64,000 bases of DNA from Alphaproteobacteria bacterium (GTDB lineage Bacteria; Pseudomonadota; Alphaproteobacteria; Rhizobiales; Rhizobiaceae): positions 248,001 through 312,000 of the forward strand of contig JANSYK010000001.1 of assembly GCA_024742485.1 (NCBI GenBank), written 5' to 3'. Shown here in pieces: positions 2,253 to 64,000 of the stretch. A program made the translations under genes and the position numbers. The notes under the pieces were generated by a model that did not search any database, was not told where the DNA came from, and worked only from the letters and a program-made list of their open reading frames with translations. Positions within the stretch are counted from its first letter, which is position 1, and each line of letters begins with the position of its first letter.

Positions 2253-2297
2253 AATCGGGTCCTATATATCTTTGCCAACCAGCCAGAGTATCTGACA

Positions 2298-3436: not shown

Positions 3437-3477
3437 TTGATACCGGTCAAAATTCGCCCCTGCCTCTTTCGTAATGT
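3437..3477 (+). promoter_or_regulatory. FNR/FixK box and -10 element upstream of DUF992 gene
   Basis: TTGATACCGGTCAA at 3437-3450 fits the FNR/FixK consensus TTGAY-N4-RTCAA in all ten defined positions. A box centre at about 3443.5 would place a class II transcription start near 3485. A -10-like TAATGT sits at 3472-3477, at the expected distance. This predicts activation of the DUF992 gene under low oxygen. The motif is seen directly; regulation is inferred. Confidence 0.7.
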
Positions 3478-3532
3478 TGCACGATGAGGTCATTCCGCAA
3501 TCCTGCGGGATCCAGTTCGAATGAGGTCGGTT

Positions 3533-4015
3533 ATGAGTAGAAGAATTCAAGTATCCGCGGCTGTAATAGCCGTAGCGTTGGCTTCCGGTACCGCCACGGC
3601 AAGTGGCGAGACCCGGACCCGTTTGGGTATTCTGGAGTGCACGGTCGAAGGTGGGATCGGACTGATTGTCGGCTCAAACCGGAAGGCAGACTGCACTTTT
3701 GTCCACAAGGACGGCGCTGTCGAGAAATACAGTGGCGAGCTGAGCAAATTCGGGCTGGATATCGGTGTGACGGACAACGCCTATCTTGGATGGATCGTTT
3801 TCACTCCAGCTGGAAGCGAATATGGTGCCCATTCTCTTGCCGGACGCTATGTCGGCATCTCTGCAGCAGGGGCGCTTGGAATTGGCCTGGGCGTGAATGC
3901 GCTGGTTGGCGGATCAACGAAAAACATCGGCCTTCAGCCTTTCAGCATTGAAGGAAAAACCGGGTTGAACCTTGCTGCCGGATTTGCATCACTCACACTC
4001 GAACCGCATCGATAG
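3533..4015 (+). CDS. DUF992 family secreted protein
   Basis: This protein of about 160 residues has an N-terminal signal peptide (hydrophobic AAVIAVALASGTATASG, cleavage near residue 26). The body matches the DUF992 family common in Hyphomicrobiales: RLGILECTVEGGIGLIVGS, the conserved cysteine pair (LEC, ADC), LGWIVF, LAGRYVG, and a glycine-rich end (ALGIGLGVNALVGGS). It is probably periplasmic or surface-located; its molecular role is unknown. The ATG at 3533 is preferred over the one at 3521 because GAGG at 3523-3526 gives a normal ribosome-binding spacing. An FNR-type box lies 83 bases upstream, so expression may rise at low oxygen. Confidence 0.85.
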   Translation: MSRRIQVSAAVIAVALASGTATASGETRTRLGILECTVEGGIGLIVGSNRKADCTFVHKDGAVEKYSGELSKFGLDIGVTDNAYLGWIVFTPAGSEYGAHSLAGRYVGISAAGALGIGLGVNALVGGSTKNIGLQPFSIEGKTGLNLAAGFASLTLEPHR

Positions 4016-4124
4016 CGCCAGATTGCTTGCAGACCTGCCTGAAAACAGGGTCGGGCTTTCGAGCGGACAAACCTGCTACGATCCACGCGAATGTGCATTG
4101 CGGCACGGACAGCGCCGCATGTTC

Positions 4125-4166
4125 TTGATCCCGGTCAAAAGGGCGGCGCGGTATGTGGGCTAAGGT
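4125..4166 (+). promoter_or_regulatory. FNR/FixK box upstream of L,D-transpeptidase gene
   Basis: TTGATCCCGGTCAA at 4125-4138 is a full match to TTGAY-N4-RTCAA and differs from the box at 3437 by one spacer base. A class II start would fall near 4173, and the expected -10 position holds TAAGGT (4161-4166), a weak match. The next gene begins about 60-100 bases further on. Confidence 0.6.
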
Positions 4167-4235
4167 AAAATACAATCGCGTGTTGGGAGCGCGCCAAGGA
4201 CAACTTGGAGCGATGATGTCGGCAGTGCTGAGCCG

Positions 4236-4751
4236 ATGGTTAGCAGAAGGATCGACGGGAATGGATTGCTGATGCCCAGTTGCCTTTCTCTCCAACCAGC
4301 ACCCGCTACCGGTCGATCCAATATCTTTGCCTTTTTCGTGACGTGGTTTGTCTGCATCGGAGCGCTCTTTCCCCCTCACGCCCACGCGACCGACAGTCTG
4401 GTCATCAACATAAGCTTGCCTGAGCAGCAAATGGCCGTCCGATACTCCGGTGAAATCCGCCATGTGTGGCCCGTTTCCACCGGTCGCTCGGCCTATTGCA
4501 CGCCGGCAGGCACCTATCGGCCATATCTATTGAAACGCATGCACTACTCTTCGAAATATGATTGGGCACCCATGCCGTTTTCGATTTTTTTTCACAGGGG
4601 CTATGCGATCCACGGAACCACCGAGATCAACAATCTTGGAACCCCCGCTTCTCACGGCTGCATCAGATTGCATCCCGAACAAGCGGAGACCCTTTTCAAT
4701 CTGGTGCAACAACACGGGAAGGATCAGACCCTGATCAGGATCCTACCCTAG
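4236..4751 (+). CDS. L,D-transpeptidase (YkuD domain), secreted
   Basis: Up to 171 residues. A hydrophobic export segment (IFAFFVTWFVCIGALF, ending PHAHA) is followed by a YkuD catalytic domain. The active-site motif is present: a histidine in YAIHGTTE, then 13 residues later SHGCIRL with the catalytic Cys. The family forms 3-3 peptidoglycan cross-links or attaches proteins to peptidoglycan in the periplasm. The protein is close to the minimum size for the family, so it is essentially one catalytic domain with no LysM or binding module. Start choice: ATG at 4236 leaves a long polar lead of about 28 residues; ATG at 4272 gives a more normal signal peptide. An FNR-type box lies at 4125, so it may be a low-oxygen cell-wall enzyme. 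Confidence 0.85.
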   Translation: MVSRRIDGNGLLMPSCLSLQPAPATGRSNIFAFFVTWFVCIGALFPPHAHATDSLVINISLPEQQMAVRYSGEIRHVWPVSTGRSAYCTPAGTYRPYLLKRMHYSSKYDWAPMPFSIFFHRGYAIHGTTEINNLGTPASHGCIRLHPEQAETLFNLVQQHGKDQTLIRILP

Positions 4752-4885
4752 ATAATTTATAAGAGTCGGTTTTGGATTTATCAGGAACAAGCCGACGCCC
4801 TTGCGGGGCGCTGCGTTGATTGCCCTTCCCGGCTACAGGTGTGACCCGCAACGTAGCGAATACCGCAGGCGTTTTTGAGCGGTTT

Positions 4886-4927
4886 TTGATCTTTGTCATC
4901 TACCGACCTTCAGACGCAGCCTACGCT
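4886..4927 (+). promoter_or_regulatory. Weak FNR/FixK-like box before acs operon
   Basis: TTGATCTTTGTCAT at 4886-4899 matches nine of ten FNR consensus positions (last A is T). TACGCT at 4922-4927 lies at the right distance to be a -10, giving a predicted start near 4934 and a leader of about 40 bases. A site this degenerate can arise by chance, but five better ones in the same 14 kb raise its credibility. Confidence 0.4.
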
Positions 4928-4974
4928 GTTTTCTGGCCGCTTCCACCAAAGTGGTTACAGGTGAGGAGTTGATA

Positions 4975-6726
4975 ATGGTCGACGATCTGATTCACAAAAA
5001 GCCCGACCAGGCGGCGCAGGCAAACATGCCGGACTATTCAAAGGAGACGGAGGTATTTTCATGGGCAAAGGCGCGCGGCCTGCTTGGCGGCCTGGCGGAT
5101 GGAAAACTCAATATTGCCCATGAATGCGTTGACCGGCACGTGGCAAACGGTGCGGGCGCCAAGGTTGCGCTGAGGATCATTCGCAAAAACGACGACATCA
5201 CGGAGGTTACCTATGATGCGCTTTTCAACCTGACCAACCGGTTTGCGAATGTGCTTCAGTCATTGGGCCTGGCAAAGGGCGAACGGGTTTTCTCGCTGCT
5301 CGGCCGCACGCCGCAGCTCTATGTCGTTGCACTCGGAACGTTGAAAGCAGGATTGGTATTTTCTCCACTGTTTTCCGCCTTCGGTCCGGAACCCTTGCAG
5401 GCGCGTATGGAAATCGGTGGGGCACGCGTGCTGGTGACGACGAATGCGCTCTACCGGCGCAAAGTGGCACCCATCCGCGATCGCCTTCCCGAGCTGCAGC
5501 ACGTGTTGCTGATCGATGCGGAAGACGACGGCGATGCTCTGCTCGATTTTGACGCGCTCCTGCAGCTTGCCTCGACTGAGTACAACATTGAGGCAACCGA
5601 ACCGGAAGACGTTGCACTTCTTCATTTTACCAGTGGAACGACAGGGCGCCCGAAGGGCGCGGTTCATGTGCACGAGGCAATTGTCGCACATTGTTATACG
5701 GGCCGCGTCGCCCTCGACCTGAAACCGGACGATGTCTATTGGTGCACGGCTGATCCCGGCTGGGTTACCGGGACATCCTACGGCATCATCGCACCGCTTG
5801 CCATCGGCGTGACAATGGTAATCGATGAGGCGGAATTCGATATTGCGCGCTGGTACCGCATTCTTGAAAGCGAGCGTGTTTCGGTTTGGTACACGGCACC
5901 GACGGCCATCCGCATGTTAATGGCGGCCGGCGCTGAAGCGGCGAAGAATTGTAATTTGTCCCAGCTTCGCTTCATGGCAAGCGTCGGCGAACCGCTCAAT
6001 CCGGAAGCTGTCCTGTGGTCGGCCGCAACATTCGGAAAACCCTTTCACGACAATTGGTGGCAGACTGAAACCGGCGGAATCATGATCGCGAATTACGCCT
6101 CCATGGACGTCAAGCCGGGGTCCATGGGCAGGCCGTTGCCAGGAATCGTTGCCGGAATTGTTGAGCGGGAGAACGGCAAACTGCATCACATTGACAAGGC
6201 AATGTGTGTTGGTGAATTGGCGTTAAAAACCCCCTGGCCATCGATGATGCGCGCGTATCTGGATGAAGAGGAACGATACAACAAGTGCTTTTCTGATGGC
6301 TGGTATCTGACCGGTGACCTGGCGATGCGCGATAGCGATGGCTATTTTTGGTTTATCGGACGCAGCGATGACGTCATAAAAAGTTCCGGACATCTGATTG
6401 GCCCCTTTGAGGTCGAAAGCGCACTGATCGAACACGAGGCGGTGGCCGAGGCCGCCGTGATCGGGCTTCCTGACGAAACGGCGGGCGAAGTTGTCAAAGC
6501 CTATGTCGCGCTCAATCCAGGATTCAGGCCTGACAAGGACCTCCAACGCAGTCTTCGTGGCCATGCCCGCCAGCGCCTCGGGCCAGCCGTCGCTCCACGG
6601 GAAATCCTTTTTCGTGAGAAGCTGCCGAAAACAAGGAGTGGCAAGATCATGCGGCGACTCCTGAAGGCCCGCGAGATGGGACTGCCCGAAGGGGACATTT
6701 CGACATTGGAGACTGACGAGAAATGA
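4975..6726 (+). CDS. acsA: AMP-forming acetyl-CoA synthetase
   Basis: About 583 residues of the ANL superfamily, activating acetate (or a short acyl acid) to acyl-AMP and then acyl-CoA. The adenylate motif [15 protein letters not shown] is at about residue 220. The WWQTETGG motif that shapes the acyl pocket in acetyl-CoA synthetases follows, then WYLTGDLA, the hinge-region [14 protein letters not shown], and the C-terminal [14 protein letters not shown], whose lysine is acetylated in known Acs enzymes. The tryptophan in WWQTETGG favours acetate over longer acids. The length is closer to Bacillus AcsA than to the 650-residue proteobacterial Acs. ATG at 4975 is chosen because GAGGAG precedes it at good spacing; a GTG at 4951 would overlap that site. 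Its stop overlaps the next start (ATGA), so it is co-transcribed with the E1 fusion. Confidence 0.88.
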
Positions 6727-8723
6727 CCGCCACCGATTTGAGACCCCACCTGAATCGCACCCATGCTCTGGCCATGCTGGGTGACATGATCCGCATACGG
6801 CGTTTCGAAGATGTTTGCGCCGAACTCTATACGAAAGAGAAAATTCGCGGATTTCTGCACCTTTATGACGGCGAAGAGGCGATCGCCGCAGGGGTCATTC
6901 CACTGCTCGGGTCCGACGACCGGCTGGTGGCAACCTATCGCGAACACGGACATGCCCTGATCCGTGGCATATCAATGAACGCGGTCATGGCCGAAATGTA
7001 CGGCAAGGCTTCCGGATGCGCCGGCGGGCGCGGTGGATCAATGCACTTGTTCAGCCGCGAAAACAATTTCTATGGCGGCAATGCCATTGTCGGCGGCGGA
7101 TTGCCCTTGAGCGTGGGGCTGGGACTTGCAGACCGGATGCGGAATGAAAACCGCATAACCGCATGTTTTTTCGGCGAAGGTGCGGTGGCCGAAGGTGAAT
7201 TTCATGAAAGTATGAATCTTGCCTCCCTATGGAATATACCGGTTCTTCTGGTCTGCGAAAACAATGGCTATGCAATGGGCACAGCCCTTCAGCGCTCAGA
7301 AGCCGAAACTGACATTCAGGTCAAAGCCAAGGGTTACGCGGTCGCAAGCGCGTCAGTCGACGGCATGGATGTGGTTGCCGTGGAAGCCGCGACGCGCCGG
7401 GCACTGGAGCACATCCGGGAAGTCGGCGGACCCTATCTCCTGGAATGCAAAACCTACCGGTTCAGGGCGCATTCGATGTTTGATGCCCAGTTGTATCGGC
7501 CGAAGGATGAGGTTGCACAGTGGCGCAAGAAGGGACCGATCGTCAGGTTTCAGTCTTGGCTCCTGGAAGCAGGAATTGTTGATAAGGATGATGTCGACAC
7601 CCTCGTATCAGGCATCGACGAGGAGATCGCAGCGGCAGTGACGTTTGCAGAGGAAGCAGATTGGGAACCGCTGTCCAATCTGACCAACCATGTCACCGCA
7701 CCACAACGACCTGCGCCACCGGTTGTCCAACCAGCACTGCGGATGATGGAAACCACTTACCGGGAGGCCGTGAAATCAGCAATCACCGATGCGATGGAAC
7801 ACGATGATCGCGTTTTCCTCATGGGTGAGGATGTCGGTCTGTATGGTGGATGTTATGCTGTGAGCAAGGGCCTTCTGGATCGTTTTGGCCCGGAACGTGT
7901 TCGTGACACTCCACTTTCCGAGTCCGGTTTCACCGGCGCGGGAATTGGTGCGGCGATTGCCGGCATGCGGCCGATCGTCGAGGTCATGACCGTGAATTTT
8001 TCGCTTCTCGCTCTTGACCAGATCCTCAATACCGCTGCCACTTTCCGACACATGTCCAACGGTCAGTTTGGCGTCCCCGTTGTGATCCGCATGGCGACGG
8101 GCGCCGGCAAGCAATTGGCGGCACAACACTCCCACAGTCTTGAGGGCTGGTATGCCCACATCCCTGGTTTGCGAGTCCTCACACCGGCGACCCTGGAGGA
8201 TGCGCGCGGGATGCTCCTCACGGCGATTGAGGAGCCTGACCCTGTCCTGATGTTCGAGAATGTCATGCTCTACAATCGCACCGGGCAGCTTGCGGAAAAT
8301 GCCGGCGCGGTTGATATCGACAAAGCAGCAATACGGCGCAACGGCAGCGATATTTCTCTCATTACCTATGGCGGCTCGCTCTTCAAAACCCTTGAAGCGG
8401 CAGAGATGCTTGCCCCACAGGGGATTGATGCCGAAGTAATTGATCTGCGTGTGCTGCGTCCACTGGATATGGAAACCATTTTCGCGTCCGTTTCGAAAAC
8501 CCATCGCGTGTTGATGATCGATGAAGGTTGGAGGTCTGGAAGCCTGTCAGCCGAAATCGGTATGCGGCTGGCTGAGCAAGCATTTTTCGAACTCGATGCA
8601 CCCCTTGCGCGCGTTTGCAGTGAGGAGGTGCCGATCCCCTATGCCCATCACCTTGAGGAAGCGTCGATTCCTCAAGTCCCGGGCATTGTGAAGGCGGTGA
8701 AATCGGTTTGCGGCAGGACCTGA
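6723..8723 (+). CDS. Fused E1 alpha-beta thiamine-diphosphate 2-oxoacid dehydrogenase
   Basis: This 666-residue chain joins both E1 subunits that are usually separate. Residues 1 to about 325 are E1 alpha: [28 protein letters not shown], the thiamine-diphosphate motif [17 protein letters not shown] ending in ENNGYAMGT, and [10 protein letters not shown]. Residues from about 340 are E1 beta: [68 protein letters not shown]. Overall it is closest to pyruvate/acetoin dehydrogenase E1. Such an E1 decarboxylates pyruvate or acetoin and passes the acyl or acetaldehyde unit to lipoate on E2. It overlaps acsA by four bases and lies four bases before the E2 gene. No E3 is in this operon, so one of the two lipoamide dehydrogenases encoded at 51.8 or 58.7 kb may serve. 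Whether the substrate is pyruvate, acetoin or another 2-oxoacid cannot be read from the sequence. Confidence 0.85.
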
Positions 8724-8727
8724 CACC

Positions 8728-9954
8728 ATGAGTGAATTTCTCATGCCATCGCTTGGAGCCGACATGGAAGCCGGAACCCTGCTGGAATGGCTCAAGAAGC
8801 CAGGCGACGCGCTCACCAGGGGAGACATCATTGCGGTTGTCGAAACGCAGAAAGGTGCTATTGAAATCGAGGTGTTCGAAGATGGCGTGCTGGCGCGTTA
8901 CCTGCTTGACATCGGCAGCAGCGTTCCGGTCGGAACACCAATGGCGGTGATTGACCAAACGGGCCAGGATCAACCATCGCCATCCGTACAAGCCGTGCAG
9001 ACGGCGAAATCAGATACCGCGCCGACGGAGACGAAGGCTGCAGACGGCAGAGCAGCTGGAGGATTTGGGCCCATACCGGCGTCCGCTTCAGCTCCCGCTG
9101 CCACCCGATTAGCGGAAAGGCAAATGGTCACTCCGGCCGCGCGACGATTGGCCCGCGTCATTGGCGTCGATCTCGCCGCAATCAAGGGCAGCGGACCGGA
9201 TGGTGCGGTTGTGCTGGCCGATGTCGAAATGGCGGATGCCTCAAAAACCGGCAGCCCGACCGCGGACAGCCGGTCTTCGAAATCGCCAGGTAAAACCGCC
9301 ATGCGTGATGCAATTGCCGCTGCCATGGCACGCTCGAAACGGGAAATCCCTCACTACTATCTTTCCCATACCTGCGACTTGACCAACGCAAATGCCTATG
9401 TCGCCGACTACAATGCCTCTCAACCGCCCGACAAAAGGCTGCTGATCGCAACTCTGTTTATGAAAGCCGTTGCCAGGTCGGTTTCGAAATACCCTGAATT
9501 CAATGGGCATTTCGAAAATGGCGCGTACAAGGCTGCCGACCGGGCGCATGTTGGATTTGCAATCAATATCCGCGATGGCGGACTTGTGGCGCCGGCCATA
9601 CATGATGTGGCCGCCCTCGATCCTGCAACGTTAATGACGCGGATGCGGGATCTCGTTGCGCGTGTGCGCGCTGGCCGGTTCCGCGCGGCTGAGCTGTCCG
9701 ATCCCACCATCACAATATCCAGTCTGGGGGAGCGCGGTGTCGAAACGCTGTATGGGATAATCTATCCACCCCAGGTTGCCATCGTCGGATTCGGAATGCC
9801 GGTGGCGCGGCCATGGGTCTGCGAAGACGGCGTGCAGTCTCGCCAGACCGTGGCAATAACGCTGGCGGCCGATCACCGCGTCAGCGACGGACACCGGGGT
9901 GCTCTTTTTCTCAATGCCATCAGCAAATTCCTTCAGGAGCCGGAAACACTATGA
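8728..9954 (+). CDS. Dihydrolipoamide acyltransferase (E2)
   Basis: 408 residues with the standard E2 layout. Residues 1-75 are a lipoyl domain with the modifiable lysine in ETQKGAIEIEVF; the usual DKA is replaced by QKG. After an Ala/Pro-rich linker, residues about 130-165 form the E3/E1-binding domain (TPAARRLARVIGVDLAAIKG). Residues from about 190 form the catalytic core, ending with AADHRVSDGHRGALFL, which carries the DHRxxDG active site. It moves the acyl group from lipoate to CoA. It is translationally coupled to its neighbours: the acyl carrier protein start overlaps its stop. Together with the E1 fusion it makes a compact, E3-less dehydrogenase complex. Confidence 0.88.
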   Translation: MSEFLMPSLGADMEAGTLLEWLKKPGDALTRGDIIAVVETQKGAIEIEVFEDGVLARYLLDIGSSVPVGTPMAVIDQTGQDQPSPSVQAVQTAKSDTAPTETKAADGRAAGGFGPIPASASAPAATRLAERQMVTPAARRLARVIGVDLAAIKGSGPDGAVVLADVEMADASKTGSPTADSRSSKSPGKTAMRDAIAAAMARSKREIPHYYLSHTCDLTNANAYVADYNASQPPDKRLLIATLFMKAVARSVSKYPEFNGHFENGAYKAADRAHVGFAINIRDGGLVAPAIHDVAALDPATLMTRMRDLVARVRAGRFRAAELSDPTITISSLGERGVETLYGIIYPPQVAIVGFGMPVARPWVCEDGVQSRQTVAITLAADHRVSDGHRGALFLNAISKFLQEPETL

Positions 9955-10196
9955 CCAATAAGGACATCGAAGCGCTCTTACGCCGTGAACTCTTCGAAAT
10001 CGCACCCGATATCAATCCGGACGATATCGACAGGGGCGCCGATCTGCGGGAGGAGTTCGACATCGACTCGATGGATTTCCTCAATTTGGTTGTGGCGCTG
10101 GCCAAGAATCTGGAGCTGGATATTCCGGAGACTGATTACTCAAAAATGTCCAGCTATGACGATCTGGCGGCCTATCTGCGCCTCAGGATGAGCTAG
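9951..10196 (+). CDS. Acyl carrier protein in the dehydrogenase operon
   Basis: 81 residues, start ATG at 9951 overlapping the E2 stop (ATGA). It is acidic and helical, with a phosphopantetheine attachment serine in the motif EEFDIDSMDFLNLVVAL, the expected D-S-[ML] context, at about residue 40. This is a stand-alone carrier, not the fatty-acid-synthesis AcpP, whose motif is usually DSLD within a different surround. Carrier proteins in such operons presumably hold an acyl group on their phosphopantetheine arm; here the partner enzymes are an acyl-CoA synthetase and an E2 transferase. What group it carries and where it goes are unknown. Confidence 0.85.
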   Translation: MTNKDIEALLRRELFEIAPDINPDDIDRGADLREEFDIDSMDFLNLVVALAKNLELDIPETDYSKMSSYDDLAAYLRLRMS

Positions 10197-10504
10197 CTTG
10201 GTTGGTATTGCTGGACACAGTCGTTCATTTGACAACCAACAAATCCGTACGACCGTCAAGATTCTGCATGTGGATTTCGAGAGCGACGAAATCGCGGGGC
10301 GGTTGAACTGGTGAACAGGGGAATGGAGAATTCTGACATAGTCAGACACGCTGCTTTCGGAGAAAGGGAGTGTCCGAGGCGCCGTGCTGCCGCGCATCCT
10401 ATTCCGGTCCGGTATCGGGGTCATCAAACATAAGTATGAAAATGTGAGTGCAAGGTGATCCGGGGCGATATGGCAGCCGCTCGCTTTTGCGGCATAAGTC
10501 ATTG
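10197..10504. other. Intergenic region without a recognised gene
   Basis: About 310 bases after the acyl carrier protein gene. TTGGTTGG near 10198 and CAACCAA near 10231 could pair across a long loop, but no clear terminator with a T-run is visible. No convincing open frame is present on either strand. The following 110 bases are the promoter and leader of the helix-hairpin-helix gene. Confidence 0.45.
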
Positions 10505-10546
10505 TTGACGGATATCAATTTCGCTGACCGCTGGAGAAATTATAAT
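10505..10546 (+). promoter_or_regulatory. FNR/FixK-dependent promoter
   Basis: TTGACGGATATCAA at 10505-10518 is a full match to the FNR/FixK consensus. A perfect -10 hexamer TATAAT lies at 10541-10546, with the spacing of a class II activated promoter (box centred 41.5 bases before a start near 10553). This is the best-formed promoter in the window. The downstream helix-hairpin-helix gene begins about 60 bases after the predicted start. Confidence 0.75.
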
Positions 10547-10614
10547 GAATAGCGGCAACTTGAACGCCGCATTTTGGCTGTTCACTGCCCGGTCGCCAGA
10601 AGGACCGAGGAGTA

Positions 10615-11499
10615 TTGAGAATAGACACGTCGGCAAAATCAGAGACTGAACCGGATGTGACACTCGCAGATTCTGCAATTGGGCGGCATGATCGGTCCAA
10701 CTACGCCATTTCAGCAAAGCTTCGCGAATACGCAGATTTGCTTGAATATCAGGGCGCCGATGGATTTCGGGAAAGAGCCTACCGAGCGGCGGCTGACACG
10801 GTGGATTCGCTCGGACGCCCCGTTGCCGACATACTCGCCTCTGGCGGACGCGACAGCCTCATCGAACTACCGGGGATCGGCAAGCGCATCGCCGCCTCGA
10901 TAGCGGAGATGCTCGCCAGCGGCCGTTGGACACAACTTGAAAGGCTGCGCGGTGACCTTGATCCTGAAAACCTCTTTTTGAGCATTCCGGGCATCGGACC
11001 TGCTTTGTCCAGGCGTTTTGCAGATGAGCTAAAACTGGAAACGCTTGAAGAGCTTGAAGCGGCACTGCACGCAGAAGACTCACCCATCGAAGGAATTGGC
11101 CCTCGGCGCCGGGCAGCGATCACGGCAGTGCTTGCAGAGCGGCTCGGTCGTTCTACCGCGCGCGAGCACATCAAGGGAGCGCCCAGGCCAACGATCGATT
11201 TGGTACTGCAGGTTGATGCGATGTATCGTGAGAAGTCTGCAGCCGGAGAATTGCGGAAAATTGCCCCGAAGCGCTTTAATCCTGACCGCGTAAAATGGTT
11301 GCCGGTAATGCATGCGCGGCATGACAACTGGCATTTTTCCGCACTTTATTCAAATACCGGCCTGGCCCATAAACTTGGAAAAACAAAGGACTGGGTGGTC
11401 ATTTATTATGAAGCCGAGGGAGAGCGCGAAGGGCGCTGCACCGTCGTAACCGAGACGCGCGGCCCTTTAAGAGGCAAGCGTGTGATCCGAGGATGGTAG
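10615..11499 (+). CDS. Helix-hairpin-helix DNA-binding protein (PolX N-terminal-like)
   Basis: About 294 residues. Residues 20-75 resemble the helical 8-kDa-type domain at the start of family X DNA polymerases (YADLLEYQGADGFRERAYRAAA). Helix-hairpin-helix motifs follow: ELPGIGKRIAASIAEML, SIPGIGPALSRRFADEL and IEGIGPRRRAAITAVL. The polymerase palm and PHP nuclease domains of true PolX are absent. Instead there is a C-terminal domain of about 100 residues (KWLPVMHARHDNWHFSALY, GKTKDWVVIYYEAE) that I do not recognise by name. It probably binds DNA ends or gaps. The start is uncertain: TTG at 10615 follows GAGGAG too closely, and an internal GTG at 10657 is possible. It sits behind a well-formed FNR-type promoter, which hints at a role in DNA protection at low oxygen; that is inference. 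Confidence 0.75.
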   Translation: MRIDTSAKSETEPDVTLADSAIGRHDRSNYAISAKLREYADLLEYQGADGFRERAYRAAADTVDSLGRPVADILASGGRDSLIELPGIGKRIAASIAEMLASGRWTQLERLRGDLDPENLFLSIPGIGPALSRRFADELKLETLEELEAALHAEDSPIEGIGPRRRAAITAVLAERLGRSTAREHIKGAPRPTIDLVLQVDAMYREKSAAGELRKIAPKRFNPDRVKWLPVMHARHDNWHFSALYSNTGLAHKLGKTKDWVVIYYEAEGEREGRCTVVTETRGPLRGKRVIRGW

Positions 11500-11530
11500 C
11501 TGTCGTTGCATTGCGGATTTGGCCAAGCGC

Positions 11531-11551
11531 AGCACACCGTTTCGGTGTGCT
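11531..11551. terminator. Hairpin between convergent genes
   Basis: A nine-base perfect stem AGCACACCG / CGGTGTGCT with a TTT loop lies between the convergent ends of the helix-hairpin-helix gene (11499) and the endonuclease-family gene (11576). The following TTGTAATG is only mildly T-rich. It is probably a bidirectional terminator or a Rho-assisted stop. Confidence 0.5.
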
Positions 11552-11575
11552 TGTAATGTGCACATGATGTCCCGG

Positions 11576-12358
11576 TTACCCCCCTTCATCGTTTTTAATG
11601 TCAGCGTTCGCAATTTCGTGGTCCGGTTTCCCCGGCACTGACAGCGGCTGGTTCCGGGTCCGATCACTGACTGGATATAGAAATTCCAGCAAAATTGGAC
11701 GATGGTCCGAGGGGCCCTTGAACAAGGTTTGCGCGTGGATGCACTGCAAATCGCGCACCATGCACCTGTCAAGACGAAACGGCACGATCTCCTGTGCATG
11801 GTGTGTCGAGCCGCGCGGTCCGACATCCGAAAATCCGCGCAAGACAACCGGGCCAAATGAATTGTAGTCGCCGATGATGGCCGTAGGTCCACGGGTTGAA
11901 CGAGCAATAAGGCGCAATTGCCGTCGATTGAGAATTTGCCCGTGCGACAAGTGGACATTGGCAATGGTTATGCCTGCGATTTCCAATAACTGAGCAAATC
12001 GGGTGGGAAGACTGCCTGGCAGTTTGGAGGCAGGCAATTCCAGTGCTCGAAGCTCTGTTAGCGGTCTTCGGCTCCATGCGGCGAGTCCATGACGCCGCCC
12101 GGGCCACGATTGCTTGTAGTACTGTCCGCCGATTGTGGCCGGCAATGGCTCTGCTGCCCCTGTCACTTCCTGCATGAGGAACAAATCCGGCCGTTCTCGT
12201 TCGATCAGTTCGGAGATATCACTAGCGAGTGCTCCGGAGCGGTGCAGCAGGTTCCAACTGATGATCCGCAGTTTATGCTGCCCGCTATCTCTTGCGGACA
12301 TGTGGGGGCGGAAGCGCCGGCCTGCTATTTTGCTTACGAATCTTCTCATGGGTTTCAT
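11576..12358 (-). CDS. Endonuclease/exonuclease/phosphatase family protein
   Basis: About 260 residues of the Mg-dependent EEP fold. Signature segments in order: LRIISWNLLHRSG (metal-binding Asn), RERPDLFLMQEV (catalytic Glu), IANVHLSHG, IIGDYNSFGP (GDxN, usually GDFN) and the C-terminal SDHRPILLEF (catalytic Asp-His). Members cut DNA or hydrolyse phosphodiesters in lipids and signalling molecules. The start is placed at ATG 12358, two bases after the upstream cardiolipin synthase gene ends; a longer reading to 12391 would overlap it by 31 bases. Tight coupling to a phospholipase-D-type lipid enzyme suggests a lipid or phosphodiester substrate, but DNA cannot be excluded. Confidence 0.82.
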   Translation of the reverse strand: MKPMRRFVSKIAGRRFRPHMSARDSGQHKLRIISWNLLHRSGALASDISELIERERPDLFLMQEVTGAAEPLPATIGGQYYKQSWPGRRHGLAAWSRRPLTELRALELPASKLPGSLPTRFAQLLEIAGITIANVHLSHGQILNRRQLRLIARSTRGPTAIIGDYNSFGPVVLRGFSDVGPRGSTHHAQEIVPFRLDRCMVRDLQCIHAQTLFKGPSDHRPILLEFLYPVSDRTRNQPLSVPGKPDHEIANADIKNDEGG

Positions 12359-12360
12359 TC

Positions 12361-13770
12361 TCAAAGATAGGGAAGAAGCAAGCGTGCGCATGCGTCCCGC
12401 AGCTTGATCATCAGGGAACGGTCGGCCAACTGGGCAGAGGTCAGGGGTGTGGCCGACAATATTTTTTCGCCGATCAAGGTATCGATTTTCGTGACGGTAG
12501 CAGCGTCATAACACTCGATCATGAACTCAAAATTCAGGCGAAGACTCCGAACATCCCAATTTGCACTTCCAACGGCACACCATTTACCATCCACCGTAAC
12601 CAGCTTCGAGTGATCAAAGGGTTTTGGCGTCGCGAGACAACGCACTCGATCCACTGGAAAAAAGGAAAGGTGGGCGCGCATGGCCCAATCCATGACAAAG
12701 TGATCGGACTGCTCGGGAACAAGCAGATCGATTTGGACACCCCGTAGTGCTGCCAAATTGATGGCGAATTTTAGTGGTTCGTCCGGAAGGAAATAGGGAG
12801 TCACGATTTTGATGTGGTGCCTAGCACGGCTGAGTGCCGCCGCGAGGATTGTTTCTATGCTGCCGAAGTCTTCATCTGGTGCCGAGCTAATCCCTCGCGC
12901 AACGACGGATCCCACCGAATTGTAACCTGGCCACCATTCCTCACCATTGAGGTTTTCGCCGGTTGCGAAATTCCAGTCTTCAGCAAAACTCGACATCAGC
13001 TGGCTGACAACCGGTCCGTCCAGCCGGAAATGGACGTCATCGACCGTGTGCCTTCGAAACCCGACACGGGTGTATTCCACACCGAGGTTCAAACCGCCCG
13101 CGAAACCAACTGCTCCGTCAACAACAATCAGTTTCTTGTGGTTTCTCAGATTGATGAATGACATGGCCCAAGGTCGCCAATCGTGCATGAACCGTGCCAC
13201 GGAAATGTCGGCTTCCCTGAGCTGTCGCACAACCGGTGAATACAGGTAACCGCTGCCGATCCCGTCGACGATAACCCGGACCTGGACGCCTCGTTTCCGT
13301 GCGTCGATCAGTGCGCGAACAAATTGTGCGCCGATATCGTCGGGCCGAAAAATATAGGTTGTCAATGCGATGCTTCGCCGGGCATCTGAAATGGCCGCAA
13401 GCATCGCAGGATAAGCTTCATCTCCACCACGCAACATCGCAACCTTGTTGCCTTGCAGGAGCGGAATATCTGTCACCTGCGACCCAACCTCGGCTAGGGT
13501 TTGCAACCCCTTGCCCAGTTGGCTCACGTCATATCGAAACGGTGCGGTGACATCCCGGTTCGGGTTGGTTTGACGATTGATTTTGGACGCGCGCCGGGCG
13601 ACACGGTTTATTCCGAAGGCTGAATAGATAACGGCTCCGAACAGAGGCGACAGCCAGACAAGACCAATCCAACCGATCGCCGCCCGCACCTCACTTTTGT
13701 TAAGAAGCACATGACCGGTCACCAAGGCGGCAATGATCAGGTGCAGGATTGCAAGCGAACCAATAAACAT
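12361..13770 (-). CDS. cls: Cardiolipin synthase / phospholipase D family
   Basis: 469 residues. Two N-terminal membrane segments (LAILHLIIAALVTGHVLL and IGWIGLVWLSPLFGAVIYSAF) are followed by two phospholipase D catalytic repeats: RNHKLIVVDGAVGFAGGLNLG and FDHSKLVTVDGKWCAVGSANWD, both with HxKxxxxD. This is the layout of bacterial Cls, which transfers a phosphatidyl group between two phosphatidylglycerols. It leads a two-gene unit with the endonuclease/phosphatase-family gene. Divergent, about 820 bases away, is a glycosyltransferase/acyltransferase pair, so this neighbourhood may modify membrane lipids. No clear own promoter was found; the FNR box at 13997 points the other way. Confidence 0.87.
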   Translation of the reverse strand: MFIGSLAILHLIIAALVTGHVLLNKSEVRAAIGWIGLVWLSPLFGAVIYSAFGINRVARRASKINRQTNPNRDVTAPFRYDVSQLGKGLQTLAEVGSQVTDIPLLQGNKVAMLRGGDEAYPAMLAAISDARRSIALTTYIFRPDDIGAQFVRALIDARKRGVQVRVIVDGIGSGYLYSPVVRQLREADISVARFMHDWRPWAMSFINLRNHKKLIVVDGAVGFAGGLNLGVEYTRVGFRRHTVDDVHFRLDGPVVSQLMSSFAEDWNFATGENLNGEEWWPGYNSVGSVVARGISSAPDEDFGSIETILAAALSRARHHIKIVTPYFLPDEPLKFAINLAALRGVQIDLLVPEQSDHFVMDWAMRAHLSFFPVDRVRCLATPKPFDHSKLVTVDGKWCAVGSANWDVRSLRLNFEFMIECYDAATVTKIDTLIGEKILSATPLTSAQLADRSLMIKLRDACARLLLPYL

Positions 13771-14593
13771 CTCGAAAGGCCAAAATCAGTACGTGTCACT
13801 CTTATCGTCGATGATCATACGTAAGGGACTGTCATGTGATTTTGCCAAACGTCTTGGTCTGCGGCCATGGTGGACATCTCCACCGACGCCGAACAGAAAT
13901 GAGACAGTCCGAGCACACGACAAACGCAACAATACTGCCGAACGATGATACCCCAAACGAACTGTTCCCATTCTGTCGGCTTCGTTCCGGCTCTAGTTGA
14001 CCTGCGTCAATCGTGGTCACGGTGCGGTAATTATCATTGTCTCCCAATGCTGTTCGAACCGAACCCGTTGCCCGGCCAGCCGATCTGGAAGAAGTCAGCC
14101 TGACCATCGATGTCAAGCCGATTTGCCTGCGCAGATAAACTCCGGTCCTGGCGACAATTGGTTTGCGTTGCACGTTATGCTCAAAAACCGGCGCTGATTG
14201 CCAGGGCTCTTTTTCTGGATCGGCGGGGTCATCGGCCCCGCAACCGCCGATCGTTTCGAACCTGCAATGAGGACCGCGGAGGTGGCAGGTACCGGATGGT
14301 GATCTGGGTCCCGCCGGGCATGGTCGTCCCGGTGAAACCGGCGGAGGATGACAATGCGGGTAATGGACCAGCGAGCAATGCCGATAGCGTCGCATGTCTG
14401 TTGCGGCGGCATCGGCATTCAGGGTCGATGTGTTTTAGGCTTCCATCCGCTCAGAATTGAAGCCGCGTGGATTGTGATGGGTACTTGCGTATTTGCCGGT
14501 GACGTCATGTCCGCTGCCGGTAACCGGTGCAAATCAGCTATCCGTCATCGATGCATCTGACTGCTGTACATGGATTTCAATTCGGGAAGTTGC
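13771..14593. other. Long region lacking a convincing gene, possible decayed gene
   Basis: More than 800 bases lie between the divergent cls and glycosyltransferase genes. An FNR-type promoter at 13997-14037 points right into it. No frame is open and protein-like throughout. Short stretches look coding-like in different frames: RPADLEEVSLTIDVKPICL around 14085-14130, a hydrophobic GLFFWIGGVIGPATADRFEP around 14206-14265, and RIEAAWIVMGTCVFAGDVMS around 14453-14512. Each is interrupted by stops or frame changes. A decayed, formerly FNR-controlled gene is the simplest reading; a long leader or a non-coding RNA is the alternative. I could not assign a family. Confidence 0.4.
13997..14037 (+). 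promoter_or_regulatory. FNR/FixK-dependent promoter facing a gene-poor region
   Basis: TTGACCTGCGTCAA at 13997-14010 fits TTGAY-N4-RTCAA fully. On the + strand TATCAT at 14032-14037 is a good -10 at class II spacing, predicting a start near 14045. On the - strand the equivalent position has no -10-like sequence. The first solid gene downstream is the glycosyltransferase at 14594, about 550 bases away. Confidence 0.65.
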
Positions 14594-15886
14594 ATGACGA
14601 GAATTTTGATGTTCACCAATACCTATACCCCGCACGTGGGGGGTGTAGCTCGAAGCGTGAGCGAACTTGCACAAGGCCTGCGGGATGTCGGTGATGAAAC
14701 CCTCGTCATTGCGCCGGATTTTGAGAACATGCCGGCAACCGAAGAAGACGTCTATAGGGTTCCGGCGATGCAAAATTTTGCCGGAAGTGATTTTTCAGTT
14801 CCATTGCCGCTGAGCGGCAATCTGGCAGGGGTCGCCCACGACTTTCAACCCGATATCATCCACAGTCACCACCCGTTTCTCCTCGGAGACACCGCCCTGA
14901 GGGCCGCAAGCTCACTCGGAGTACCGGTCGTTTTTACTCACCATACGCGCTATGAACTCTATGGCCACTATGTCGAGCAGAATTCGAACCTGCTGAAGCG
15001 CTTGGCGCTAAGCCTGTCACTTGGCTATTGCGGAATGTGTGACAGCGTCATTGCACCAAGTCAGAGCATTGCGGCCTTCCTTGCTGATCATGGCGTCAAA
15101 ACGCCTATCGAAGTCATTCCAACAGGCGTTCATCCAGAGGTTTTTTCGAACGGGGAAGGCAGTAAAATGCGCCTGAAGCTGGGTATTCCGGATGATGTTC
15201 TGGTCGTCGGACATGTCGGGCGACTGGCGCCGGAGAAGAACCTTGGCTATCTGGCAACCGCCCTAGCGGTTCTCTCCAAGGGGCACACCAAAGCGCACAT
15301 ATTGATTGTCGGCGATGGTCCGTCACGTGATCAGATGATCCGAATCCTTTGTGGAGCCGATGCCGACAAACGCGTTCATTTTACCGGAAAACTCACGGGT
15401 CGACAGCTTGCAAATGCCTATGCGGCGATGGATCTGTTTGCCTTCTCATCCTTTTCGGAAACGCAGGGCCTTGTGCTGGCGGAGGCCATGACAGCAGGCA
15501 TACCGGTCGTTGCGCTTGATGCACCGGGCGCACGTGAAGTCGTTCGGGATGGGCGCAACGGCAGATTGCTCGATGAGGATGCCGATGCCTTTGCGTTCGC
15601 AGCGGCACTGGGCAGGATCGCGACCGCTAAATCCGCCTATCGACGAACCTTGCAGAACAACGCACGAAGGACTGCCGAGCAATATTCAATCGACAAGACC
15701 ATCAAACGTACACGGGATTTCTACGCGCAAACGTTGCGCGACAAAGGCTCGTCCTCAGATGAAACCGACAGTTTGTGGCAACGCACAAGAAGAGCCATCT
15801 CTCGTGAAATGGACATCGTCGGCAATATTGCCAGCGCGGCCAATGATGCGATGTTTCCCGATTCTGCGGAGGAGAAGCGGCAATGA
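14594..15886 (+). CDS. Glycosyltransferase family 4 (GT-B fold)
   Basis: About 430 residues. The N-terminal Rossmann domain starts MTRILMFTNTYTPHVGGVARSV, the glycine-rich acceptor loop of GT4 enzymes. The donor-binding domain contains VVGHVGRLAPEKNLGYL and the EX7E motif in SSFSETQGLVLAEAMTAGIPVV. Of the GT4 group, it resembles enzymes that glycosylate diacylglycerol or phosphatidyl-inositol more than those of O-antigen clusters. ATG at 14594 has GGGAAG at good spacing; the upstream ATG at 14570 lacks a site. It is translationally coupled (ATGA overlap) to a DUF374 acyltransferase, so the pair probably makes an acylated glycolipid; the sugar and acceptor are unknown. The C-terminal 40 residues are charged and specific to this protein. 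Confidence 0.85.
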   Translation: MTRILMFTNTYTPHVGGVARSVSELAQGLRDVGDETLVIAPDFENMPATEEDVYRVPAMQNFAGSDFSVPLPLSGNLAGVAHDFQPDIIHSHHPFLLGDTALRAASSLGVPVVFTHHTRYELYGHYVEQNSNLLKRLALSLSLGYCGMCDSVIAPSQSIAAFLADHGVKTPIEVIPTGVHPEVFSNGEGSKMRLKLGIPDDVLVVGHVGRLAPEKNLGYLATALAVLSKGHTKAHILIVGDGPSRDQMIRILCGADADKRVHFTGKLTGRQLANAYAAMDLFAFSSFSETQGLVLAEAMTAGIPVVALDAPGAREVVRDGRNGRLLDEDADAFAFAAALGRIATAKSAYRRTLQNNARRTAEQYSIDKTIKRTRDFYAQTLRDKGSSSDETDSLWQRTRRAISREMDIVGNIASAANDAMFPDSAEEKRQ

Positions 15887-16578
15887 TCAGTCGGATGCGC
15901 CGGATTTACAGCAGCGTCGCCGTGCAGGTTCTTGCCGCAATCTTTAGTGCCATTTTGTTCGTTTGGTGCGCGCTCCTCAGACGAAATACCGAACAGATAG
16001 CAAAAATTGACTGGTACATTAATGGCGGAAACCGACTGCTGGCGTTGTTCTGGCACGGGAAATATATCCCGCTATTTGCTCTGGCGAAGGGAAAGGACGC
16101 CGTTGTTTTGACAAATGACTCGTTCCGTGGACGTGTCATTGCGGGAATTTGCAGGTGGTTCGGCTATAGGCCCATTCTGCTGCCGTCCGACAGGAAACAT
16201 CACGGGTTTGCCGTCCTGCTGGAGCTTTTCTCGACCAGACCGAACCTAACGGCATTGGCGCTGGACGGCCCGCTTGGTCCATATCATTGCGTTCGCACGG
16301 GCGCATTGCGGTCGGCTGCGCGCAATGGTGTAAAAATAGTTCCCATCGGCGTCGCCAGTCAACGCAAGTTCATCCTGACATCGAGATGGGATCTTCGGGA
16401 AGTGCCGCTTCCGTTTACGAAAATCGCCGTCGCTGTGGGTGATATGATAGACGCCGGGTCAATTGTCGCTGATTCCGGCCAGCCCTCGCTGGAGGAGTTG
16501 ATACGCACCGGGATGGATCGCGCGGAGCAACAAGCTGAAAAGATACTGGTCGATACGGAGCCGCGTTCGTCAGCGTGA
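15883..16578 (+). CDS. DUF374 lysophospholipid acyltransferase-like protein
   Basis: 231 residues. An N-terminal membrane anchor (VLAAIFSAILFVWCALL) is followed by the DUF374 core: LLALFWHGKYIPLF (the histidine replaces the HxxxxD of standard acyltransferases), DSFRGRVIAGICRWFGY, and LALDGPLGPYHCVRTGAL with the conserved DGPxGP. DUF374 proteins are related to lipid A and lysophospholipid acyltransferases and are usually found in lipid A or glycolipid contexts. It overlaps the glycosyltransferase gene by four bases. An acyl transfer to the glycosyltransferase product at the inner membrane is the natural inference. Confidence 0.82.
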   Translation: MISRMRRIYSSVAVQVLAAIFSAILFVWCALLRRNTEQIAKIDWYINGGNRLLALFWHGKYIPLFALAKGKDAVVLTNDSFRGRVIAGICRWFGYRPILLPSDRKHHGFAVLLELFSTRPNLTALALDGPLGPYHCVRTGALRSAARNGVKIVPIGVASQRKFILTSRWDLREVPLPFTKIAVAVGDMIDAGSIVADSGQPSLEELIRTGMDRAEQQAEKILVDTEPRSSA

Positions 16579-16689
16579 GTTTGCGCTTCGATAATCTGAG
16601 ATTGTGAACACGGTTTATGAAACGCCGTGCCCACGCAGCAACTGCATACACTCAATTCATGCGGTCCCGCTAACGCCGCCGCGCGCCAA

Positions 16690-16885
16690 CAAGCGTCGAG
16701 GACTGAACCGCAACACTGGTGGCTTAGGGTCCCTTTCCACCAAAATGCTGACGAAATCTGACCTTGGCGTCGACGACCAATTCGTCCCAGAAACCTCTCG
16801 TCAGGCTGTCACGCTGGAGATAGACCTCGTTTCCATCGTCCGACTTGATGAACCCCTATCCCTCAGCCGCCAACAAACAATCGAT
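16690..16885 (-). pseudogene. Remnant of ribosome hibernation factor with cold-shock-like domain
   Basis: Read leftwards from about 16885, one frame gives LLAAEG, a TAG stop, GFIKSDDGNEVYLQRDSL, RGFWDELVVDAKVRF, GGKGP, a TAA stop, then ATSV. This is the C-terminal cold-shock-like domain (GYGFI-DGREIYFHRNS pattern) found fused to HPF/RaiA ribosome-associated proteins of alphaproteobacteria. The first stop replaces the tyrosine of GYGFI, and the second replaces the glutamine of GPQAS. The whole N-terminal ribosome-binding domain is missing. The break lies beside palindromic repeat copy 2 (16900-16939). The identification rests on motif memory, not a search. Confidence 0.65.
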
Positions 16886-16899
16886 GTGTCCGTGCTAGT

Positions 16900-16939
16900 G
16901 CAATTCAGGTTTTGCCGATTCCATCAAAACCTGAATTGC
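16900..16939 (-). repeat. Palindromic repeat, copy 2 of 3
   Basis: A perfect 14-base inverted repeat, CAATTCAGGTTTTG (16901-16914) and CAAAACCTGAATTG (16925-16938), encloses a 10-base loop. In reverse complement it matches the first 40 bases of the copy at 26-85, including GGAATCGGCAA. This is the shortest and most symmetrical copy; the extension to GCATCAACAAAA seen in the other two is absent. It lies 15 bases from the hibernation-factor remnant. Confidence 0.75.
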
Positions 16940-17044
16940 TTTTCTGGAATTGATGGTGACGTCACAATCGGAAACCCGTAATCGGTCCATATCCGATACA
17001 GCCGTGCGCCCCATCACGAAGACCGCCATGAATGCGCGATTCAA

Positions 17045-17086
17045 TTGACATAGATCAATCTTTTGCCCGCGGCCTCACCGTATGCT
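17045..17086 (+). promoter_or_regulatory. FNR/FixK-dependent promoter of DUF6455 gene
   Basis: TTGACATAGATCAA at 17045-17058 is a full consensus FNR/FixK box. TATGCT at 17081-17086 is a -10 at class II spacing, giving a predicted start near 17093 and a leader of about 29 bases before the ATG at 17122, which has a GGAGAA ribosome-binding site. Confidence 0.75.
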
Positions 17087-17121: not shown

Positions 17122-17430
17122 ATGAGGTTTTCTAGTATTCTGGCACGGATTTCAAGACATGCGGACCTCTTCGAGGCAATGGCCAACAAGCTGGGCGTCC
17201 GCGACAAGATATTTGAATTGAACAATGCACCGTCCGTCTATCGCCGGGCAAATATGCGCTGTCTGTCATGCGGCCAGGCCGAAGCCTGCAGCGCGTGGCT
17301 TGAGGCTGGCGCGGAGGCGGATGAAGCACCGGATTACTGCAGAAACAAAACTCTGTTTGCGCGTTTGGAGCGCCTGTCGAACACCCGCGTTGGCACTGAT
17401 TGTCATGGGTCAGTCCAGCAAAGCGGCTGA
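17122..17430 (+). CDS. DUF6455 family small cysteine-rich protein
   Basis: 102 residues. The family pattern is present: MRCLSCGQAEACSAWLEAG, then PDYCRNKTLFARL, i.e. CxxC-x5-C-xx-W followed by a C-x-N segment. These four cysteines suggest metal or redox chemistry, but the family has no established function. Small DUF6455 proteins are frequent in alphaproteobacteria near respiratory or low-oxygen genes. The clean FNR-type promoter just upstream fits this. It is monocistronic, with a strong terminator 59 bases after the stop. Confidence 0.8.
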   Translation: MRFSSILARISRHADLFEAMANKLGVRDKIFELNNAPSVYRRANMRCLSCGQAEACSAWLEAGAEADEAPDYCRNKTLFARLERLSNTRVGTDCHGSVQQSG

Positions 17431-17488: not shown

Positions 17489-17524
17489 GCCCCGGATCGT
17501 GAAAGCGATTCGGGGCTTTTTTTG
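17489..17524 (+). terminator. Rho-independent terminator
   Basis: GCCCCGGATCG (17489-17499) pairs with CGATTCGGGGC (17506-17516), with one mismatch and a short TGAAAG loop, followed by a run of eight T. A second small hairpin, CCAGAGCTTGCTCTGG, lies directly before it at 17471-17486. The 60 bases between the DUF6455 stop and this terminator are structured and could also belong to a short RNA. Confidence 0.85.
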
Positions 17525-60147: not shown

Positions 60148-60260
60148 GCTTTGTCTCCTGATCTTGCGGCGGGAACAAGCCGCATATTCCGCTGGTGATC
60201 GCCGAACAGCACCCGATGGGTGCCGACGCGAACAATCTCACATGCCGAATGGTTTGGGCC

Positions 60261-60824: not shown

Positions 60825-60861
60825 GGCCTCGGTCTCTCCTCCTGTGTGATCCCTACGCTTG

Positions 60862-62187: not shown

Positions 62188-62202
62188 TATCCCAGCCTCC
62201 CC

Positions 62203-63582: not shown

Positions 63583-63599
63583 TTTTTCTCCCCCCAATC

Positions 63600-64000
63600 C
63601 TATAAAAGTATATCCGTGTAGAGTTCAGACGGGTCCGGTTCCGGCTCAGTTTGCGCATATTCCGCACTGTCGGCCACGATATCCCGAACCTCCTTGTCGA
63701 TGGCTTTGAGTTCGGCATCGGTCGCCCATTTGTTTTCCAACAGGCGTGTCTTGACCTGCTCGATCGGATCGTGCTCCGACCGCATCTTCTGCACTTCGTC
63801 CTTGCTGCGATATTTTGCCGGATCCGACATGGAATGCCCGCGATACCGGTAGGTCAGCATTTCCAGGATAATCGGGCCATTGCCGTCACGCGCAAAGGCC
63901 AGTGCCCGTTCCGCCGCCGCCTTGACGGCTCTGACATCCATACCGTCAACCTGGTATCCGGGAATATTGAACGACGTGCCGCGTTCGGAAAAATTGGTCT
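63600..64000 (-). CDS. pdhA: Pyruvate dehydrogenase E1 alpha, C-terminal part (runs off window)
   Basis: The frame is open from the right edge and ends at 63600, giving the last 133 residues or so. It contains [20 protein letters not shown], then [38 protein letters not shown] and a C-terminal acidic tail. This is the second half of the thiamine-diphosphate domain of pyruvate-type E1 alpha. The cofactor motif and start lie beyond 64000. First gene of the pdhA-B-C operon, 17 bases before pdhB. Confidence 0.93.

Follow-up and report, generated by a model that had tools for sequence, protein, structure and literature searches.

The 64 kb window analysed here (the whole stretch of DNA, bases 248001–312000 of the 2.64 Mb contig C154, in a genome of 6.87 Mb and 161 contigs) very probably contains a cluster of rightward class II promoters of the FNR/FixK type. 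Their main output would be a low-oxygen module of acetate-CoA ligase (acs) and pyruvate dehydrogenase (PDH) genes, together with a protein of the DUF6455 family. Regulons of the FNR/FixK kind are already known, and low-oxygen control of this cluster is a prediction from its sequence. In the proposed scheme, each operator would be centred approximately 41–42 bp upstream of the putative transcription start and, as oxygen falls, an FnrL-like iron-sulphur (Fe-S) regulator and/or a FixK-like regulator encoded on contig C44 would bind and activate these promoters. The predicted result is a second PDH module for low oxygen (Acs, a fused E1, an E2 and a carrier) beside PDH genes of housekeeping type, plus the small four-cysteine DUF6455 protein. 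Pyruvate would then be oxidised at low oxygen to acetyl units, which may be held on the dedicated carrier or freed as acetate by Acs with formation of ATP.

FNR/FixK-type boxes and promoter geometry

The box was defined as TTGAY-N4-RTCAA, with the same pattern reversed as a control and 100 dinucleotide shuffles as the window background. A preliminary description of this DNA had reported five exact boxes and one near-consensus box, at 4886, and a pattern scan recovered all six, the last with a single mismatch. The boxes and the hexamers downstream of them were:

3437–3450, + strand: exact FNR/FixK box TTGATACCGGTCAA, with −10-like TAATGT at 3472
4125–4138, + strand: exact box TTGATCCCGGTCAA, with −10-like TAAGGT at 4161
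4886–4899, + strand: one-mismatch box TTGATCTTTGTCAT of the acs operon, with −10-like TACGCT at 4922
10505–10518, + strand: exact box TTGACGGATATCAA, with −10 element TATAAT at 10541
13997–14010, + strand: exact box TTGACCTGCGTCAA, with −10-like TATCAT at 14032
17045–17058, + strand: exact box TTGACATAGATCAA, with −10-like TATGCT at 17081

The rarity claimed for such boxes was borne out by the shuffles, which gave a mean of 0.41 exact matches against the five observed in 64 kb, with 0/100 shuffles reaching five. As had also been noted, no further exact box was present in the window; none was found in the 18 kb upstream of it either (L062). A codon-bias caller of open reading frames (ORFs), trained on 33 long window ORFs, placed all five exact boxes between genes, in agreement with the preliminary description. 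Mechanical ORFs at 3993–4463 and 13832–14395, both on the − strand, overlap two of these boxes and had negative coding scores. Matches with at most one mismatch numbered 18 in the window against 8.7 expected from the shuffles, and single imperfect boxes therefore carry little weight alone.

The four −10 elements reported earlier (3472, 10541, 14032 and 17081) were all present, and the hexamers of boxes 4125 and 4886 were additional to them. Each of the six boxes has, on the + strand and 28–29 nt from its centre, a hexamer with A in the second and T in the sixth position; the local frequency of such a hexamer at class II spacing was 9.4 % per box, and the − strand displayed it for one of the six. 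This spacing fits class II activation of rightward genes and, on sequence alone, the arrangement matches that of a class II FNR promoter, in which the operator lies near −41.5 and the −10 element approximately 29 nt from the box centre. The possibility of an acquired island was considered and rejected, as G+C content was 55–57 % at 1–18 kb versus 56–59 % in the rest of the window and neither the window nor the preceding 18 kb contained a tRNA gene.

Distribution of the box across the genome and candidate regulators

Genome-wide, we identified 61 exact sites, compared with five for the reversed pattern. When 61 sites were placed at random 20000 times, at least five of them fell within 13.6 kb in 0.025 % of trials (P ~0.00025). 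Box density was therefore uneven, rather than equal across the genome, the outcome that the preliminary description had named as contrary to its proposal. In the comparison of intergenic with coding sites that it had recommended, the five exact boxes of the window are intergenic, and 23 of the 61 genome sites lie inside called ORFs, several of them by overlap with a called start. It is extremely improbable that the cluster is a chance accumulation of a short palindrome with no regulation attached. The only twofold excess of one-mismatch matches in the window and the 23 sites within called ORFs lean towards that explanation; opposed to it are the 61 sites against five, the placement statistic, the −10 spacing and the conservation upstream of acs and DUF6455 described below. 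On statistical grounds chance is refuted for the boxes taken together, and a single one of them could still be a chance match.

A Pfam scan of 40 box-adjacent genes, a selection of those flanking the sites, identified products including COX1, a HemN-type radical-SAM protein, four Usp proteins, Hsp20, cold-shock, DksA-like, FtsH-like, PPK2, host-attachment and nitroreductase proteins, whilst other genes in this selection matched no family, or unrelated ones. Core target types of FNR/FixK regulons (cbb3 oxidase, hemN and usp) thus carry the box in the same genome, and the operator occurs in promoters beyond chance. The genome also encodes both an FNR-type protein with Fe-S cysteines and a FixK-type protein, each below the cut-off of its named equivalog; these two scored highest with the FNR-type helix family. 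The FnrL-like protein, 273 aa as called, has Fe-S-type cysteines in a C-x2-C-x7-C arrangement and matched FnrL best in NCBIfam (233.5 bits, cut-off 300). Its gene is flanked by a COX1-family (ccoN-like) gene on one side and a hemN-like gene on the other, and each of these neighbours has a box; that of the ccoN-like gene overlaps the opening codons of the called ORF, whose true start is therefore probably later. The FixK-like protein, whose gene on C44 adjoins a PAS histidine kinase gene cluster, has no C-x2-C-x7-C and matched FixK best (174 bits, cut-off 300).

These features resemble published systems. The Rhodobacter sphaeroides FnrL regulon and the core FNR/FixK/DNR regulons of alphaproteobacteria (PMC2908626) share with this genome the box, the Usp, ccoN, hemN, dksA and Hsp20 targets and the location of fnr near cbb3 genes. 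In Bradyrhizobium, micro-oxia induces genes for Usp, Hsp20, host-attachment, nitroreductase, CBS and phosphoenolpyruvate (PEP) synthase proteins (PMC6515984), and the families of this FixK2 response in Bradyrhizobium diazoefficiens carry boxes here, several of them on C44. Oxygen sensing by FixL belongs to the Bradyrhizobium diazoefficiens comparison and is not established here. The FnrL/Dnr network of Dinoroseobacter shibae (PMC5398030) has in common the FNR box, the class II position and Usp and cold-shock targets, and in Herbaspirillum the genes activated by Fnr proteins include usp and hemN2 genes, with activation of a class II promoter as well (PMC5934665).

The identity of the regulator (FNR, FixK or DNR/NnrR type) is not readable from the boxes, because the sites bound by FNR, FixK and DNR are closely alike (PMC2908626). 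This similarity would also allow the boxes to be real and read mainly by a nitric oxide-responsive regulator of the DNR/NnrR type, with the island answering denitrification intermediates instead of oxygen, which we consider improbable. Such a reading gains from a NosR-like gene (812 bits, cut-off 1000) with two upstream boxes and from the 21 HTH_Crp_2 matches in the genome, nine of them above cut-off and classified in part. It loses from the fact that the FnrL-like and FixK-like proteins outscore all others with the FNR-type helix family, and that the same box stands at ccoN-, hemN-, Usp- and Hsp20-type genes, relatives of which are FNR/FixK targets or induced in micro-oxia. Control by the FnrL-like and/or FixK-like protein in response to oxygen is the reading that we retain.

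Further observations concern regulators and boxes outside the window. A protein encoded on C144 looked DNR-like by eye. Two exact boxes, at C154:991210 and 991347, lie upstream of a regulator gene (L046) whose product was considered as NnrR and rejected as such, being FtrB by NCBIfam (330 bits, cut-off 211). A cluster larger than that of the window was found at C44:132341–154282, with seven exact boxes in 22 kb (L021, L022). The genes of this cluster encode a DksA-like protein, the FixK-like regulator, a PAS histidine kinase, BON, host-attachment and M50-CBS proteins, a P-type ATPase, PEP synthase and Usp, and it resembles the published Bradyrhizobium micro-oxic stress set. Identification of the box-bearing PEP-utilising enzyme on C44 as pyruvate phosphate dikinase, which would have offered a tie to pyrophosphate from Acs, was rejected in favour of PEP synthase (TIGR01418, 1098 bits, cut-off 740).

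The acs–PDH operon and DUF6455

The genes predicted to form the main output of the cluster, and the stem that follows them, were:

4975–6726, + strand: acs, AMP-forming acetate-CoA ligase (NF003313, 888 bits, cut-off 729)
6723–8723, + strand: fused alpha-beta E1 of pyruvate dehydrogenase (TIGR03182, PDH E1-alpha, 426.8 bits, cut-off 393.85)
8728–9954, + strand: E2 comprising a lipoyl, an E3-binding and a catalytic domain, with conserved lipoyl Lys and DHRxxDG
9951–10196, + strand: acyl-carrier-like protein, phosphopantetheine-site Ser in 65/65 aligned sequences
17122–17430, + strand: DUF6455 protein, C-x2-C-x5-C...C-x-N
17489–17516, + strand: terminator-like stem of 12 pairs with a trailing T7, separating DUF6455 from cyoABCD

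Control of the acs–E1–E2–carrier operon, mentioned only as a possibility in the preliminary description, emerged as the best supported part of it through box conservation in relatives. The counts are based on a fused-E1 scan of the GTDB species collection, from which the best 80 loci of 579 relatives were taken; no acs could be recognised in nine, and another five were set aside for an incomplete gene or too short an upstream sequence, leaving 66, or 67 including the window. Within 300 bp upstream of the acs start, as inferred from alignment, an exact box was present in 22/66 relatives and a box with at most one mismatch in 45/66 (22/67 and 46/67 with the window), compared with 0/67 and 1/67 for the reversed pattern. 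A further 12 genomes of the order displayed six exact boxes and 11 with at most one mismatch at acs (reversed, none and one). Across the 80 loci, exact boxes occurred at 10.9 per 10 kb upstream of acs versus 0.39 elsewhere, and records with an exact box at acs included Rhodobacteraceae, Hoeflea, Stappia, Rhodoferax, Paraglaciecola and Glaciecola, among them Hoeflea alexandrii (L100) and Roseovarius marisflavi (L093). Spacers were distinct in 36 of the 46 acs boxes and the upstream flanks were almost unconserved, in a comparison where the box positions are inflated by selection. The −10 match profile of 45 acs promoters from relatives peaked at 29 nt (mean 2.24 matches).

DUF6455 as a target, also proposed earlier, was supported by strong conservation of the box across genomes. 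The searches within the order used the best 30 loci of 36 (DUF6455), 145 (DUF992), 206 (L,D-transpeptidase) and 238 (GT4 glycosyltransferase) matching genomes. Upstream of DUF6455, window included, an exact box was present in 15/30 loci and a box with at most one mismatch in 24/30, against 0 and 1 for the reversed pattern. Four cysteines are shared by the window protein and nearly all of 29 aligned relatives (L158–L186; one is a fragment and one has C-x-S), which suggests a metal or Fe-S site. No relative with a solved structure was significant by sequence (best E 0.4), and one paper found names DUF6455, within a list of ethylene-affected transcripts. The DUF6455 box was also considered as a driver of cyoABCD; such read-through is unlikely because the stem of 12 pairs followed by T7 lies between them. 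Terminator-like sites in total were no commoner than in shuffles (18 vs 17.5), and this stem was the strongest of the 18.

Several observations weigh against the proposed low-oxygen control of these genes. The window's own acs box is imperfect, and 21/67 loci had no box at up to one mismatch upstream of acs, including deltaproteobacterial (L105, L131), cyanobacterial (L118), Chitinophaga-labelled (L109) and actinobacterial (L130, L138) loci. Box-rich surroundings are common, as other ORFs of at least 150 aa in the relatives' loci carried an exact box in 51/848 cases and one with at most one mismatch in 127/848, a background that includes shadow ORFs and other possible regulon genes. In the −10 profile of the acs promoters, an offset of 26 scored second at a high 1.98 (others 0.84–1.62), and at least four matches to TATAAT at 28–30 nt were found in only 10/45 promoters (control spacings 3/45 and 0/45). 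Carriage of acs is patchy, with 13/397 order genomes matching at E 1e-200 and 0/20 of the same-family relatives listed. The sequences compared share kinship, such that box counts are not independent events, and the assembly has a contamination estimate of 4.74 %.

Records containing the operon were alpha-, beta- and gammaproteobacterial, with some from other groups, and among the matches listed the best-scoring named records for the window E1 were alphaproteobacterial, e.g. Oricola and Rhodobacteraceae. Whole-island synteny was not conserved: the top clusters by number of loci were acs (61), E1-containing (55), E2 (47) and carrier (32), and no cluster for any other island gene reached six of the relatives' loci. 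Two side observations were made in these loci. A PEP-synthase-like cluster occurred near acs in nine loci, five with an exact upstream box, of which the family search named the member at L098:5790–8219 only. The 22 kb gammaproteobacterial acs loci of Paraglaciecola (L126) and Glaciecola (L134) contained seven exact boxes each, indicating box-rich islands there too.

Alignments of relatives show that the SGK motif of Acs is kept, as are the lipoyl lysine and DHRxxDG of E2. The E1 combines both halves in one chain, whereas each of the listed 2-oxoacid dehydrogenase relatives with a solved structure matches a single half. By E1 alpha and beta parts, E2 lipoyl and acyltransferase domains and catalytic residues, the two proteins correspond to E1 and E2 of PDH, and the E2 reached no NCBIfam equivalog cut-off. 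No E3 gene is present in the operon; an E3-type gene lies at 58684–60147 in the window. The acs-operon enzyme would be a second PDH, because genes of E3, E2 and E1-beta type are present as well, at 58.7–63.6 kb of the window. These belong to a housekeeping-type set at 58684–64000, comprising E3, E2, E1-beta with a lipoyl domain and E1-alpha running off the window end. A further match to E1-alpha of fused length was found at C44:62212 (open frame of 678 aa, 320 bits, below cut-off).

The acs–PDH–carrier module may assimilate acetate and pyruvate, with Acs consuming ATP, for example for lipid or polyhydroxybutyrate synthesis at low oxygen; we regard this as a serious possibility that falls somewhat short of even. 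Acetate activation is the usual direction of acetate-CoA ligase, and the Acs of the window scores above the equivalog cut-off for that enzyme. Induction of a cation-acetate symporter by Bradyrhizobium in micro-oxia (PMC6515984) points the same way, whereas the co-transcribed PDH already makes acetyl-CoA, which argues against assimilation. Formation of acetate and ATP, as in the scheme proposed here, is an inference by analogy with Acs1 of Syntrophus aciditrophicus (PMC4992975), likewise an AMP-forming acetate-CoA ligase in a low-energy setting and a precedent for that direction; the abstract on Acs1 differs in naming no PDH or carrier protein.

We found no description of the acs–PDH–carrier operon or of DUF6455 as an FNR/FixK target, which is weak evidence of absence as few subscription journals were covered. 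Table 1 of PMC2908626 lists no acetyl-CoA synthetase, PDH or acyl carrier gene, and hypothetical proteins there could include DUF6455 or others. The main text of PMC6515984 is without acetyl-CoA synthetase, pyruvate dehydrogenase, acyl carrier, AMP-binding or transpeptidase, and that of PMC5398030 is without acetyl, pyruvate, dihydrolipo- or acyl carrier. With the regulation proposed here, an uncharacterised four-gene operon gains a predicted trigger, and the DUF6455 family gains the first regulatory context found for it in the literature covered. A bolder proposal, which we judge rather unlikely, is that the operon of acs, fused E1, E2 and carrier constitutes a low-oxygen module that is widespread and has spread laterally; its PDH would load acetyl onto the carrier (rather than, or besides, CoA), and Acs would link this pool to acetate and ATP. 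DUF6455 would be a new metal- or cluster-binding regulon member, the two together forming an FNR-controlled acetyl-handling programme beyond the regulon descriptions found. A carrier that accepts acetyl from a dehydrogenase, if true, would be an unusual branch of central metabolism.

Remaining genes of the cluster

The other genes of the cluster, with one further candidate box, were:

2224–2237, + strand: candidate one-mismatch box TTGATCTCGGTCAG, near the starts of divergent ATP-grasp (−) and GATase (+) genes
2298–3131, + strand: class II glutamine amidotransferase (GATase_4; below cut-off as EgtC-like), with the start placed by eye at MCRLYAF
3521–4015, + strand: DUF992 protein (PF06186, 154 bits)
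4236–4751, + strand: YkuD L,D-transpeptidase (family match)
10615–11499, + strand: helix-hairpin-helix protein (HHH_8), resembling the PolX N-terminus, start codon uncertain
14570–15886, + strand: GT4 glycosyltransferase (family match)
15883–16578, + strand: DUF374-like protein (22 bits, cut-off 26.8), 4-base overlap with the GT4 gene

Box conservation differed strongly between genes, and the gene list of the preliminary description was consequently rejected as a uniform regulon. Its acs operon and DUF6455 held up and its helix-hairpin-helix protein did so in part, whilst DUF992 and the L,D-transpeptidase gained almost no support. Among 18 helix-hairpin-helix loci including the window's own (14 from a dedicated search and four from the E1 scan, several being weaker PolX-like or partial matches), two had an exact box and eight a box with at most one mismatch, compared with none at either level for the reversed pattern. 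DUF992 loci, again with the window, carried an exact box in 2/30 and one with at most one mismatch in 4/30 (reversed, 0 and 0), and L,D-transpeptidase loci in 2/30 at both levels (reversed, 0 and 1). Only 1/29 other loci had an exact box for each of these two genes, in large families for which orthology is uncertain; this also tells against their inclusion in the regulon, as does the GT4 set, in which 0/29 others had an exact box and two had one with at most one mismatch, within a scanned length of 350 bp that the window's own box exceeds. A single GT4 locus in Oricola did display an exact upstream box. The target of box 13997 is the least certain, because 560 nt separate it from the GT4 start and an intervening + strand ORF scores as non-coding; a leader of ~0.5 kb would be implied, and no RNA element was found at 14010–14570, as Rfam at gathering scores matched nothing in the window.

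These counts lend some credence to the view that only some boxes work, namely those of the acs operon, DUF6455 and perhaps the helix-hairpin-helix gene, and that the box at 13997 and those upstream of DUF992 and the L,D-transpeptidase are incidental or unselected. The lack of conservation upstream of DUF992, the L,D-transpeptidase and most GT4 relatives accords with this view, which we nonetheless find doubtful. Exact boxes are rare (0.41 expected per window), all three doubtful ones have a −10-like hexamer at class II spacing, and the DUF992 and YkuD genes compared may be paralogues because the families are large, with matches in 145/249 and 206/249 genomes, respectively. We retain a single cluster of FNR/FixK-type promoters with membership of differing strength. 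With partial support, the helix-hairpin-helix protein, the GT4–DUF374 pair and a GATase are probable members, and DUF992 and the L,D-transpeptidase possible lineage-specific ones, whose boxes may mark species-specific targets or be incidental. As first described, the FNR/FixK regulon island is upheld by its box statistics, class II geometry, encoded regulators and known target types, and its gene-by-gene claims fared unevenly.

The candidate box at 2224 has no −10 hexamer at 28–29 nt spacing. It lies inside both mechanical ORFs, and would be intergenic only if ATP-grasp and GATase start later, as judged here. GATase relatives had an exact box in 1/7 loci and one with at most one mismatch in 3/7, and ATP-grasp relatives had 0/5 and 0/5. 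The divergent ATP-grasp/amidotransferase pair (636–3131), a possible peptide-ligase system, also occurred near acs in 5/80 of the relatives' loci (L067, L072, L073, L107 and L110).

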